Assembly (NCBI GenBank): GCA_018829205.1
Contig: JAHJUE010000035.1
Location: 1-64,000 of the forward strand
DNA: 64,000 nucleotides
DNA from: Bacteroidota bacterium
GTDB lineage: Bacteria > Bacteroidota > Ignavibacteria > Ignavibacteriales > Melioribacteraceae
Direction: 5' to 3'
Below, one piece after another: positions 3,187 through 46,924 of the stretch. Each line of letters begins with the position of its first letter. The first letter of the stretch is position 1. The notes beneath the pieces were generated by a model that was given only the letters and a program-made list of their open reading frames with translations, made no database searches and had not been told where the DNA came from. A program made the position numbers and the translations under genes.

Positions 3187-3302
3187 ATAAACAATATTTC
3201 CTGTCCAAAGTATATTTTAATATATAAATAGACGGGATTTTGTTTCTTTTTATACCGGCTTTGTTTCTCCGGGAAGGAATTTTCTCTCTTTTTATATCTA
3301 AT

Positions 3303-3600
3303 TTCCTTTCCGGAGTATATTTTTAAATATGTTTTGATAGAAATTTCCTGTGCGGAGAGTATTCTTTGATTCGTTTTGAATTTAAATTCCTGCCCGGAGA
3401 ATATTTTTTGATTCGTTTTGAATATAAATTCCTGTCCAGAGAATATTCTTTGATATGATTAGAATATAAATTCCTGTCCGGAGAATATTTTTCGATATGT
3501 TTTGAATATAAATTCCTGCCCGGAGAATATTTTTTGATTCGTTTTGAATATAATTTCCTGTCCGTAGAGTATTCTTCGATATGTTTTGGATATAAATTCC
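3303..3600. repeat. Tandem repeat with an exact 42-bp period (seven full units)
   Basis: Units start with TTCCT at 3303, 3345, 3387, 3429, 3471, 3513 and 3555, each exactly 42 bp apart, with a partial unit at 3597. Diverged relatives lie at 3198 and about 3264. The consensus contains TTCCTGTCCGGAGAATATT. The period is 14 codons. On the + strand one frame reads as a 14-residue repeat but is broken by stops at two units. On the - strand the frame reading LYSKHIEKYSPDRN-like units is open through six copies but has no ATG. No gene is called. The remainder of the 3187-3927 gap is AT-rich and otherwise empty apart from the boundary element at 3797. Confidence 0.9.
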
Positions 3601-3796
3601 TACCGTAATAATATTTACCAGCCCGTAATAAATTATGTTGAAATTAAAAATAATTTATTAAATAATAATTTTGTCCGATTATAATAAAAGACTTGAATAG
3701 TTTGAATTGTTACAGTACATTAAAACTGCAATTTGGAGAAAGCAGGTGATTGATTCCTCTTACGGCAATTCTTTTTATACATTCCTTATACCTTTC

Positions 3797-12968: not shown

Positions 12969-13123
12969 ACAGTTGCTTTGGCAACGTGGTAGAGCATTCT
13001 CTGCCCAGTAAATAAGCTCTGCATTTGTTGAATTAAATTTATTTCATAAATTTAATTCACATATGCAATAATCCTCATCGGATTATTGCATATGTCCTCT
13101 CCAAGGGTATGGACTTCTCTTCC
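12951..13123 (+). ncRNA. Retron msr-msd noncoding RNA
   Basis: Inverted repeat a1 (12951-12967) pairs with a2 (13108-13123): AAGTCCATA with TATGGACTT (9 bp) and GGAAGAG with CTCTTCC (7 bp), with one bulged T. Inside are two msr-type hairpins, GTTGC-TTTG-GCAAC (12972-12985) and GGTAGAG-CATT-CTCTGCC (12988-13005), then two perfect msd hairpins: a 13-bp stem 13030-13042/13046-13058 with loop TTC, and a 16-bp stem 13059-13074/13080-13095 with loop TCATC. G12968, the last base of the effector stop codon and the first base after a1, is the best candidate for the branching guanosine. The reverse transcriptase ATG follows a2 by 10 nt. Confidence 0.87.
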
Positions 13124-22056: not shown

Positions 22057-22077
22057 AAATTCGTGCAGACTCGAGAA

Positions 22078-22175
22078 CACACCCCTGCCGCTCCGCGGCT
22101 TCCCCTCCTGCCTACCGGCAGGCAGGCTTGAGAGGGGAAGAAGCTGCGCGCGCAGCACGCGACGAAAGGGGTGTG
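22078..22175. repeat. GC-rich nested palindrome (REP-like element)
   Basis: CACACCCCT (22078-22086) pairs with AGGGGTGTG (22167-22175); inside it CTTCCCCTC (22099-22107) pairs with GAGGGGAAG (22132-22140), and CCTGCC (22107-22112) with GGCAGG (22117-22122). A self-complementary CTGCGCGCGCAG lies at 22144-22155. The block is far richer in G+C than its surroundings. It sits in the 226-bp gap between the VOC gene and the convergent helicase gene and could also terminate transcription. It is most likely a dispersed genomic repeat. Confidence 0.7.
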
Positions 22176-22282
22176 TGCAATGCTGCGCAATAGCAATAAC
22201 TTAAGTAGAATATTGCAAAGTATTGGATAAAATTGAAACTTGGATAAAAAATAATGCTGAACTTCCAGTGTAGCAAAGAACC

Positions 22283-31558: not shown

Positions 31559-32794
31559 ATGGAACAAAGAAAAGTATTAAAAATTATAGAATCGTTAGCA
31601 TCAAAACCTTTAATATCATTCAGAGAATTGCTAAGTGAAGTCGTTACCGAAATTGTAAATAATGATCAAATAAATGTTACCGGCGGAAGAGTATGGAAAC
31701 TTGACGCCGAGAATAAAGGATATAGACTTTTATTCCAGACAGGCAACCTTCAGAGAATTGAAGATAATTTTCTTCTGCCGCTTATAGAAAATCCTATTTT
31801 TGAGGTTCTCACACGCGAAAGAACTATTCTTGCCGACGAGACAAACGAGGAGTTAATCAAACGCGGCATTTTTAAATACAGCGCTTCAGGTGTAGGTAAT
31901 AAAACTAAAGTTGACGGTAAGAATTTCTATCAATATCTTTTGGCGGTTAACAGCGATTTAATTGACGATGAATTAAGATATACGTTAAATATCGTTGCTA
32001 CTGTTTTAACCCAAAAACTTAAAGAAAGAAATTTATCGGTAAAACAGAAAACTCTTGTCGCAGATATTGATAAAGCTAAAGCGCTTATAAAAAGTATTCT
32101 CCCGGAGCATGAATATTCATTCCACGGATATGATTTATTCGGAATTACGCTGCCGGCAGAATATTTAGCGGGAGATTTTTTTGATTATGTAAAAATTGGG
32201 AATAACGAAGAAAGATTAGGCATTGTTGTCGGAGACGCCGCGTCAAAAGGTTTAAGCGCAGCGGCCGAAGCAATGTATATTTCCGGGGCCGTAAGAATGG
32301 CCAGCATTTTCCAGATTAAAATATCACCTTTTATGTACAGGGTTAATCAGCTTGTTAATAAAATATTCAGCGACGACAGGTTCTGCTCTTTATTTTACGG
32401 TGAAATCTCCGCTGATAAAAAAGGATTATTTTTATACGCAAACGCCGGGCATAATCCACCTATATTTATAAGCAGCAAGGATAAAAAAATATCCTATCTT
32501 GAAGCTACAGGCCCGCTGCTAGGTCCGGCCCCTAATTCCAAATTTGAAACAGACAGCATAAATTTTTCCAAAGGCGATGTGCTTTTAATTTATTCGGACG
32601 GTATAACAGAAGCGGCCAACGATAAATTTGAATTTTTTGAAGAGCAGAGACTCGAAAAACTTCTTATCGATAATATTGATCTATCTCCCCGCGAAATTGT
32701 ATATAAAATATTAGAGAGTGTAAATACATTCTCAACCGATAACAGTAAATATCAGGATGATAAAACCTTGGTAGTAGTAAAACGTAAAGGATAA
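31559..32794 (+). CDS. GAF-like plus SpoIIE/PP2C serine phosphatase (RsbU-type)
   Basis: 411 residues. A GAF-like sensor (about 20-165) leads through a short coil to a PP2C/SpoIIE domain (about 195-410): GYDLFGITLPAEYLAGDFFD (metal Asp), LGIVVGDAASKGLSAAAEA, YANAGHNPPIF and DVLLIYSDGITEAAN...QDDKTLVVVKRK. It would dephosphorylate an anti-sigma-antagonist (STAS) protein in a partner-switch circuit. A STAS protein is encoded at 36689 and could be its substrate; this is inference. It is embedded in a tight + strand run with DUF4032 upstream (4 nt) and the Fe-S protein downstream (6 nt). Confidence 0.92.
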   Translation: MEQRKVLKIIESLASKPLISFRELLSEVVTEIVNNDQINVTGGRVWKLDAENKGYRLLFQTGNLQRIEDNFLLPLIENPIFEVLTRERTILADETNEELIKRGIFKYSASGVGNKTKVDGKNFYQYLLAVNSDLIDDELRYTLNIVATVLTQKLKERNLSVKQKTLVADIDKAKALIKSILPEHEYSFHGYDLFGITLPAEYLAGDFFDYVKIGNNEERLGIVVGDAASKGLSAAAEAMYISGAVRMASIFQIKISPFMYRVNQLVNKIFSDDRFCSLFYGEISADKKGLFLYANAGHNPPIFISSKDKKISYLEATGPLLGPAPNSKFETDSINFSKGDVLLIYSDGITEAANDKFEFFEEQRLEKLLIDNIDLSPREIVYKILESVNTFSTDNSKYQDDKTLVVVKRKG

Positions 32795-35700: not shown

Positions 35701-36384
35701 TCAAATAATTTTCAGTCTTTTCATCAATGAAGTTTTGTAAGAAGCGCCGATTGGAATAATCTTTTTATTTACTAATAAATTATTATCCTCGATATCCGTA
35801 ATGTTTTTGATATTGACAATATATGACCTGTGCACCCTGACAAAATTGTTGTTTTTAATTTTATCCTCCAATGCTTTCATTGTTGAATAAACAGTTATAT
35901 TTTTTTCGGTGGTTGAGATATTAACATAATCGCCGTTTGCTTCAATATAATTAATATATGAAGTGTCAATTTTTATTAGTCTTGAATCAACCTTAGCGAA
36001 GATAAAATTATCTGAAGATACAGTAACATTTCCTTTTAGAGTTTCGGATACTTTATTTACGGCTTTCAGAAATCTTACATATGTGGGAGGTTTTACAATG
36101 TAATCAATTACGTCATATTCAAACGCTTCGGCCGCATATTTATCCTTAGAAGTAACAAGAATTATAGCAGGTTTTTCATTCATTGTTTTTAGAAGATCGA
36201 GTCCGCTAAGTCCCGGCATTTCAATATCAAGAAGTATCAAATCAATTTTATCATTTCGTAAAATTTCAGAAGCTTCATTTGCGTCCTTGCATGAACCTGC
36301 AAGTTCTAAATCATTAGTCTTTCTTACAAATTCTTCCAATATTTTTCTTGCAATAGCTTCATCGTCCACAATTAAGCATTTCAT
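35701..36384 (-). CDS. LytTR-family response regulator
   Basis: 227 residues. The receiver domain (1-120) has the acidic pair Asp7/Asp8 and phospho-acceptor Asp53 in LLDIEMPG, plus a Lys in the VKPP motif near 99. The DNA-binding LytTR domain covers about 130-227, with IDTSYINYIEANGDYVNI, TMKALEDKI, FVRVHRSYIVNI and the ending SYKTSLMKRLKII. It is expected to bind promoter direct repeats when phosphorylated. No histidine kinase lies adjacent. Upstream of it (36385-36540) is AT-rich divergent promoter sequence. Confidence 0.95.
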   Translation of the reverse strand: MKCLIVDDEAIARKILEEFVRKTNDLELAGSCKDANEASEILRNDKIDLILLDIEMPGLSGLDLLKTMNEKPAIILVTSKDKYAAEAFEYDVIDYIVKPPTYVRFLKAVNKVSETLKGNVTVSSDNFIFAKVDSRLIKIDTSYINYIEANGDYVNISTTEKNITVYSTMKALEDKIKNNNFVRVHRSYIVNIKNITDIEDNNLLVNKKIIPIGASYKTSLMKRLKII

Positions 36385-36540
36385 AAAGCAATCCTAAAAA
36401 ATATTATAATAATTAACGGGCAAATTAAATAGTTCATCGGGCAATATATTCGATTCATCTAAAAAATCAAAATATTCCTCATAAATACGAAATATTATAA
36501 GTGAAGATAATAATAATTAATTAATGTTTTGATAATTATA

Positions 36541-36668
36541 AACGGCTGGGCACCAATAATTATTAAAACGTAATAATAACGGCGGTGATTTGGTCGTGCT
36601 GGGCAAATCATGATGCGGCTAAAAAACTAGGGGCACCGATAATGTAAACAAGCCGCATCACCCGCCGT
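36541..36668 (+). ncRNA. Three-way-junction leader RNA of unknown class before a STAS gene
   Basis: Three perfect helices meet with almost no linker: P1 ACGGCGG (36579-36585) with CCGCCGT (36662-36668), P2 TGATTTG (36586-36592) with CAAATCA (36604-36610), and P3 TGATGCGGCT (36611-36620) with AGCCGCATCA (36651-36660). GTGC in the P2 loop (36596-36599) is complementary to GCAC in the P3 loop (36633-36636), so a loop-loop contact is possible. GGGCACC plus a related AATAAT/GATAAT occurs upstream at 36548 and again in the P3 loop at 36631. P1 ends 7 nt before the AAAGAGG ribosome-binding site. It does not match a riboswitch class I know. Confidence 0.6.
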
Positions 36669-36688
36669 ATAAATTAAAGAGGAATATT

Positions 36689-37006
36689 ATGTGTTATTCA
36701 AAACAAATTGAAGGGAAGGAGTATTTAATAATTACTCCCGGTTACATAAGCATCGACGCGTCAATTTCAATGGAGTTTAAAGAAAAGTTAGTTAATATAA
36801 TAGCTCAAGAACATTATCATATATTAATCGATCTTGTTAATGTAAGATATATTGACAGTATAGGGCTTGCAACAATTATATCTGCGTTAAAAGAACTTAA
36901 AAATAAAGGAGATATTGTTCTTGCAAATTTAAATGCGGCCGTTAATACATATTTTAAGCTAACAAGAATGGACAGGGTGTTTTCGATTATTGAACTGGAA
37001 GAATAA
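36689..37006 (+). CDS. STAS-domain anti-sigma factor antagonist
   Basis: 105 residues, a stand-alone STAS protein (SpoIIAA/RsbV type). The phosphorylation-site region reads LVNVRYIDSIGLATIISALK, with the conserved Asp-Ser at about 54-55. In partner-switch circuits a kinase phosphorylates this serine and a SpoIIE phosphatase reverses it to free a sigma factor or other target. The phosphatase at 31559 is a candidate partner. A structured leader RNA lies directly upstream, and the ribosome-binding site AAAGAGG is 6 nt from the ATG, so translation may be controlled by that RNA. Confidence 0.92.
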   Translation: MCYSKQIEGKEYLIITPGYISIDASISMEFKEKLVNIIAQEHYHILIDLVNVRYIDSIGLATIISALKELKNKGDIVLANLNAAVNTYFKLTRMDRVFSIIELEE

Positions 37007-46068: not shown

Positions 46069-46716
46069 ATGAAAACAAAAATAATATTTCTTCTTTTAAT
46101 ATTTATAATATCGCTTTCAGGATGCAGGTTTTGGGGTGTAAGAGGATCAGGAGATATTGAAAGTGAAAACAGAGATTTAGAAGTATTCGATGCTATTGAA
46201 GCATCTGGTGCGTTTAATATTGATGTCTCTGTAGGAGACGAACAAAGCATTATTATTACAGCAGACGATAATTTGCTTAAGTACATAGTTACAAAGGTAA
46301 GAGGCGGAAAATTAATTATTGATTCAAAAAGAAATCTGAATCCTAAAAAAGAGATATTAGTTAAAATAAAAGTAAAAGAACTGAACTATATTGAATCGAG
46401 CGGAGCTTGCGATTTCTATATTGACGGAATTAATAGTGAACATTTTAAGGTTAATGCCAGCGGCGCTAGCGATCTGACATTAAAAGGAAATTGTGACAAA
46501 TTTTATATTTCACTTTCCGGGGCGGGCAATGTTAAAGCACGTGATTTTATCGCAAAAAATGTTAAGGTTGATATTAGCGGCGCATCTGACGCGGATGTTT
46601 TTGCGTCGGAGTCATTGGACGCTGAAGTATCAGGTGTCGGGTCAGTGAATTATTACGGCAATCCGGATAAGGTATCAAGCGATATTTCCGGCGTTGGATC
46701 AATAAATAGAAAATAA
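46069..46716 (+). CDS. DUF2807 (head-GIN) lipoprotein
   Basis: 215 residues. A lipoprotein signal peptide ends with the lipobox LSGC (Cys at about 18). The rest is a repetitive right-handed beta structure of the head-GIN/putative auto-transporter adhesin family: FDAIEASGAFNIDVSVGD, YIESSGACDFYIDG, VNASGASDLTLKG, ISLSGAGNVKARDF, VDISGASDADVFA, EVSGVGSVNYYG and SDISGVGSI. These proteins are common in Bacteroidota envelopes; their function is not established. A good terminator follows at 46803. Confidence 0.92.
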   Translation: MKTKIIFLLLIFIISLSGCRFWGVRGSGDIESENRDLEVFDAIEASGAFNIDVSVGDEQSIIITADDNLLKYIVTKVRGGKLIIDSKRNLNPKKEILVKIKVKELNYIESSGACDFYIDGINSEHFKVNASGASDLTLKGNCDKFYISLSGAGNVKARDFIAKNVKVDISGASDADVFASESLDAEVSGVGSVNYYGNPDKVSSDISGVGSINRK

Positions 46717-46802
46717 TAGCAACGACTAATTTCTAAATTCGTACATTTTATGAATTTAGAAATTAGTAATCATGCAATTTTGCAATCTTTTAATATTTTT
46801 AT

Positions 46803-46843
46803 AGCGGGGAAGAATCCTTATAAATTCTTTTCCGCTTTTTTTT
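46803..46843 (+). terminator. Rho-independent terminator after the DUF2807 gene
   Basis: AGCGGGGAAGAAT pairs with ATTCTTTTCCGCT (about 12 bp with two G-U pairs) and is followed by a run of eight T residues. Confidence 0.8.
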
Positions 46844-46924
46844 GTTAATAAACTTTTCTTATAAGTATTTTGTTCTTATTTTTGATTTGAAAACATTTTG
46901 AATCTAATAATCGAAAGGGAATAA

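Follow-up and report, generated by a model that had tools for sequence, protein, structure and literature searches.

The STAS gene and its leader

The window analysed here (64,000 nt of contiguous DNA) carries a STAS-domain gene and a divergent response regulator with a LytTR DNA-binding domain, separated by a 304-bp intergenic region (Table 1). An M28 peptidase and an MscS channel are the other neighbours of the STAS leader, and a SpoIIE-type phosphatase encoded about 4 kb away (31559-32794) would be compatible with partner switching. Only 1 of the 20 LytTR loci retrieved at E 1e-40, the window's own, had a STAS match in the fetched stretch, and the two best LytTR relatives (53% and 52% identical) have different neighbours. 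An operator common to LytTR relatives was thus rejected, because the window's locus alone among the 20 places a STAS match near LytTR. A retron-like RNA would be expected to have a reverse transcriptase gene beside it, but none adjoins the leader or occurs among the 21 window proteins scanned. On the minus strand, a 25-codon ORF (36381-36458, MNRIYCPMNYLICPLIIIIFFRIAL) has a stop codon that overlaps the LytTR gene start and is a possible leader peptide.

Ahead of the STAS gene, three perfect stems meet in a compact three-way junction. A first-pass annotation had described stems of 7, 7 and 10 bp with 0-1 nt linkers, and direct reading of the sequence bore this out: P1-P3 consist of Watson-Crick pairs throughout, the linkers are 0, 0 and 1 nt, and C36661 is the sole linker base. 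That annotation also placed the junction just ahead of the STAS ribosome-binding site, and we found that 10 nt separate its end from the GAGG of the STAS gene (P1 ends at 36668, GAGG begins at 36679). The repeat it reported before P1 and inside the P3 loop is likewise present at both sites. In the 4.59-Mb assembly, GGGCACCNATAAT has two exact copies only, both in this leader, and 15 more with one mismatch.

Table 1 Features of the STAS locus
Feature	Position	Strand	Description
Response regulator with LytTR DNA-binding domain	35701..36384	-	divergent, other side of the 304-bp intergenic region
Anti-Shine-Dalgarno	36471..36480	+	AATATTCCTC, perfect complement of 36679-36688
Upstream hairpin A	36524..36571	+	16 pairs, of which two are G-U in the plus-strand RNA; loop AAACGGCTGGGCACCA
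Repeat copy 1	36548..36560	+	GGGCACCAATAAT, exact match
Three-way junction P1/P2/P3	36579..36668	+	24 perfect pairs, one unpaired junction base
P1	36579-36585 / 36662-36668	+	7 bp, ACGGCGG / CCGCCGT
P2 hairpin	36586..36610	+	7 bp, TGATTTG (36586-36592) / CAAATCA (36604-36610); loop GTCGTGCTGGG
P3 hairpin	36611..36660	+	10 bp, TGATGCGGCT (36611-36620) / AGCCGCATCA (36651-36660); 30-nt loop containing repeat copy 2
Repeat copy 2	36631..36643	+	GGGCACCGATAAT, exact match, in P3 loop
Shine-Dalgarno and spacer	36679..36688	+	GAGGAATATT, before the ATG
STAS-domain gene	36689..37006	+	105 aa, ATG at 36689, Pfam STAS E 7e-14

An overlapping coding sequence, which might have accounted for the junction, was rejected. 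ORFs of at least 20 aa across it are just 38, 29 and 20 aa long, none of them gene-like, and the STAS frame, open for 66 nt upstream of the ATG and reaching P3, contains no ATG, GTG or TTG there. The first-pass description of a structured STAS leader is a fair reading. No intrinsic terminator was found in 36385-36720, and a search of the plus strand of the leader region turned up no two-box promoter-like site. A TATAAT hexamer lies upstream at 36405, and such hexamers are hardly commoner upstream of window genes than in shuffled sequence (17 versus a mean of 14.3, sd 3.4); promoter typing of 34 upstream regions revealed no clearly enriched pattern. GGGCACC resembles the -24 box of sigma-54 promoters. 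A sigma-54 promoter was rejected, as neither copy has GC at the -12 position by eye.

Rarity of the junction and the larger predicted fold

The three-way junction is thus confirmed as an observation at the level of predicted fold, and it is rare. A strict scan of the 64-kb window (P1, P2 and P3 each at least 7 bp, total 24 bp, linkers of at most 1 nt, Watson-Crick pairs only) returned 36579-36668 as the sole match, and none of 100 dinucleotide-shuffled windows contained one. Relaxing the scan (P1 at least 5 bp, P2 and P3 at least 7 bp, total 19 bp) returned the same sole place, with a match in 4 of 100 shuffled windows. The signal was weaker when G-U pairs were permitted: the window then held 5 junctions, and 27 of 100 shuffles held at least one. 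The 4 further junctions start at 3218-3436, within or adjoining a tandem repeat. In an intergenic region at 3299-3601, a 42-bp unit with TCCTGTCCGGAGAATATT forms an array of about 7 repeats. Another array, 16.5 copies of a 43-bp unit, occupies 1-716 and begins at the window's first base.

By folding energy, the leader, at present a single sequence, folds above chance. The 90-nt junction alone reaches -37.0 kcal/mol (z -3.7) and the 261-nt leader -66.1 kcal/mol (z -5.0), values matched by 0 of 200 shuffles in each case. With AT-rich flanks included, the signal for 36541-36700 is weaker (z -2.5), and 2 of 200 shuffles fold as low. When 150-nt windows were slid along the sequence (1278 in all, 20 shuffles apiece), the leader stood 7th by z on the plus strand (-5.4) and 11th on the minus strand (-5.2). 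Because the minus strand and the DNA form of the leader fold about as well as the plus-strand RNA, folding alone does not single out the plus-strand RNA as the functional form. At a GC content of 0.53, versus 0.29 for intergenic DNA, the junction comes second in GC among the separate intergenic places of the window. The window's intergenic sequence (8.2 kb) contains nine perfect stems of at least 10 bp, including P3. The sliding scan reached its minimum z (-9.6 with 20 shuffles; -6.2 for 46680-46900 with 200) in the stretch around a very strong intergenic hairpin at 46725-46767, with 16 perfect Watson-Crick pairs followed by a second, terminator-like hairpin. Two strong adjoining hairpins also occur at about 13030-13095, in the gap before an ORF called from TTG at 13086 and running into it.

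The predicted fold is larger than the first-pass annotation described, which included neither hairpin A nor the anti-Shine-Dalgarno match. Most of the first repeat copy sits in the loop of hairpin A and the remainder in its 3' arm, and the fold predicted for the 261-nt leader unites a closing helix, hairpin A and the junction in one structure. We performed ensemble calculations for nine transcript starts from 36440 to 36579. With starts at 36440 or 36465, the closing helix had a mean pair probability of 0.98 and GAGG had no free probability; with the seven starts at 36490-36579, the first three GAGG bases were 87-97% free. In these models, the ribosome-binding site would be buried in the predicted fold of a transcript that begins upstream of about 36471. 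Among 5000 shuffled upstream regions, 10 produced a 10-mer complementary to a stretch that includes GAGG, an after-the-fact figure, as the match was noticed post hoc, and a 10-nt upstream complement to the start region accompanies 3 of the 52 window ORFs compared, the STAS ORF included. No competing pairing able to free the Shine-Dalgarno was identified by eye.

Two finer proposals about this structure fared less well. The suggested pairing between the P2 and P3 loops exists as a GTGC/GCAC match, but it does not exceed chance expectation: among shuffles of the same composition, a 4-nt Watson-Crick match arises between the P2 and P3 loops in 49% and between the P2 and upstream loops in 55%. The suggested switch between two partners is unsupported, since the competing P1 strand (from 36542) becomes relevant only when the RNA begins near 36541. 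Its pairing probability is about 0.34 at that start and 0.05 at 36530; the five tested starts at 36523 or farther upstream, with which the longer hairpin forms, give 0.

Relatives and known RNA families

The leader has one full-length copy in the 4.59-Mb genome, itself, and the remaining matches, up to E 10, are short; a mobile repeat element would be expected in multiple copies per genome. Its own genus is represented by one genome in the searched set. A DNA search of 79 family genomes with the junction returned itself and 7 matches of 17-34 nt at E 0.1. In the order-wide DNA search, the matches listed (4 candidates scored per genome) include 13 weak ones outside the leader's own genome: 12 fall within the AT-rich tract (query 62-158), 1 falls at the Shine-Dalgarno region (287-314), and none of these 13 covers the junction (query 195-284). 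A single-sequence covariance model, run with Infernal's stricter filters on overlapping order, class and phylum samples, retrieved itself alone from 391 class genomes and from 395 phylum genomes at E 0.02 (at most 11 candidates scored per genome among the matches listed in these two runs). In 164 order genomes at E 0.1, it retrieved itself and one weak hit, which falls within a coding sequence whose product looks by eye like a biotin-carrier domain.

Leaders of other STAS genes gave the same picture. We compared 39 other STAS loci: 29 from the family search, two of which are additional STAS genes of this genome, and 10 from the class search and from genome contigs. The covariance model matched nothing among them at E 5. 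Upstream DNA is present for 38 of the 39 (all except L073). None of these 38 stretches contains a three-way junction (P1, P2 and P3 at least 5 bp, total 17 bp) or GGGCACC, both of which the window's own leader contains. Identity to the STAS relatives is just 29-48% across the aligned part, and the set may therefore contain no true orthologues. Viral contigs contain 17 stretches with one shared 15-mer, none with the fold at E 1; no STAS relatives were found in them, and phage and plasmid records gave no match to the leader.

In the genomes sampled, sequence comparison thus provides no evidence that the leader is conserved. Homologous STAS leaders with compensatory changes, whose lack the first-pass annotation had named as refuting its reading, were not found in the order, class or phylum samples, and no compensatory changes could be seen because no homologue was found. 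Since close relatives of the locus are missing from the sample, the absence of covariation does little to refute that reading.

Comparison with known families also left the leader on its own. No Rfam family reaches its gathering score in the window, and the leader has three sub-threshold matches (E 1.6 to 9.3), so the earlier statement that it matches no familiar riboswitch holds. One is the preQ1-I riboswitch (RF00522): AAAAAACUA in the P3 loop resembles the tail of the Rfam PreQ1 consensus, but at 13.6 bits (E 2.9) the match falls short of the gathering score, 39, and the gene downstream is STAS rather than a queuosine gene. Likeness to HDV-like, hammerhead and c-di-GMP-I RNAs, judged by eye against consensus sequences, was rejected for want of Rfam support.

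By description, the nearest published parallel in kind is the dauA motif (SRC-36-1) of Streptomyces, which PMC11109978 presents as a three-stem junction and a proposed riboswitch before a STAS gene. Both are three-stem junctions in a STAS leader, placed at the Shine-Dalgarno. In dauA, as described there, the junction itself includes the putative Shine-Dalgarno; here that element lies 10 nt beyond the junction, which on this point sets the leader outside the motif, and would be covered by a separate long-range helix. The dauA motif has 57 unique representatives versus one here, a comparison of descriptions rather than sequences, and most candidates in that source are stated there as proposals without experimental test. 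The asfR motif (PBC-36-1), a Streptomyces protein-binding candidate from the same paper, shares a three-stem junction and a repeated element that might be recognised by protein. Its repeats lie in P1a and P1b, whereas those of the leader lie in the P3 loop and in the loop and 3' arm of the upstream hairpin, and the gene context differs. In the literature collection searched, PMC11109978 was the only paper to mention the dauA motif together with riboswitches, and a search on long-range Shine-Dalgarno sequestration returned no paper matching 5 of 6 terms. By term search of a review of STAS-only proteins (PMC8256260), the words "riboswitch", "leader" and "untranslated" are absent, and "post-transcriptional" appears once, concerning BtrV of Bordetella.

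Candidate functions of the leader

The most economical functional reading, to which we give a probability of about one in three, is that this DNA encodes an orphan 5' leader of the STAS mRNA, structured and cis-acting, whose fold conceals the ribosome-binding site and so limits translation. The sequences, their complementarity and the predicted fold are properties of the leader as observed. In the proposed mechanism, the anti-Shine-Dalgarno at 36471-36480 would pair with the Shine-Dalgarno stretch at 36679-36688, and hairpin A and the compact junction would act as rigid spacers that join both ends and keep the site closed. A protein, a small RNA, temperature or a loop-held ligand could open the closing helix and turn translation on. 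We infer that the transcript starts upstream of 36471 and that the same fold would form in the cell, where it would affect STAS expression. Should the leader gate the STAS gene, it would add an RNA layer to anti-sigma/anti-anti-sigma control; a similar layer exists as a proposal only, for a Streptomyces STAS gene. A more elaborate version, which we regard as doubtful, is a single-genome leader class in which the anti-Shine-Dalgarno, a palindromic hairpin and a junction with near-zero linkers gate a partner-switching STAS protein while the two GGGCACCNATAAT loops contact a regulator.

Where transcription starts bears on a passive alternative. With a start at about 36520-36579, hairpin A would be partly promoter DNA, and the junction would be a 5'-terminal structure that stabilises the mRNA or offers protein-binding loops. 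The junction still forms for starts at 36515-36579 (P1 0.91-0.98, except 0.63 at 36541), the first three GAGG bases remain largely free for those starts, as given above, and the junction stops short of the Shine-Dalgarno as a stabiliser could. However, the plus strand there has no detectable two-box promoter-like site, and the anti-Shine-Dalgarno match would become a coincidence; we consider this alternative unlikely. A ligand-binding riboswitch, as the first-pass annotation proposed, is not supported and in our view very unlikely. A compact junction adjoining the ribosome-binding site speaks for it, as does the riboswitch proposal for three-stem junctions before STAS genes in Streptomyces (PMC11109978), but no convincing relative was found in the order, class and phylum samples, let alone conserved representatives with covariation, the loop pairing is no better than chance and the PreQ1 match is sub-threshold. 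No curated riboswitch model of any class matched at gathering score in the window, and with one unpaired junction base there is little room for a pocket in the junction.

Structure without an RNA function has also to be weighed. The nested hairpins might act as DNA rather than RNA, as what remains of a mobile or invertible element whose ends are marked by an imperfect inverted repeat at 36461-36486 / 36673-36698. The repeat (26 nt, 77%) has a perfect core of 10 bp and encloses 186 bp. Such an origin would fit the similar folding of both strands and of the DNA form, and another GC-rich nested inverted repeat lies at 22077-22176. Against it, the sole full-length match in the genome is the leader itself, and among the 21 proteins scanned, a subset of those encoded in the window, none has a recombinase or transposase as its best family, IstB and TniB being only weak ATPase matches in AAA proteins. 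We consider this reading, too, unlikely. That the fold is neutral, a by-product of intergenic inverted repeats, is also unlikely in our view: other long perfect intergenic stems in the window and the lack of a conserved copy in the genomes searched are consistent with neutrality, but three adjoining perfect stems are rarer than such stems, appearing in 0 of 100 shuffles.

The inverted repeat at 22077-22176 forms an island of high GC content (0.72 in its top 90-mer) within an AT-rich genome. The island is bounded by a perfect inverted repeat of 10 bp (ACACACCCCT/AGGGGTGTGT), with hairpins nested inside, and three other places in the genome also contain its inner 24-25 nt (query 38-62). This island may be a mobile-element remnant.
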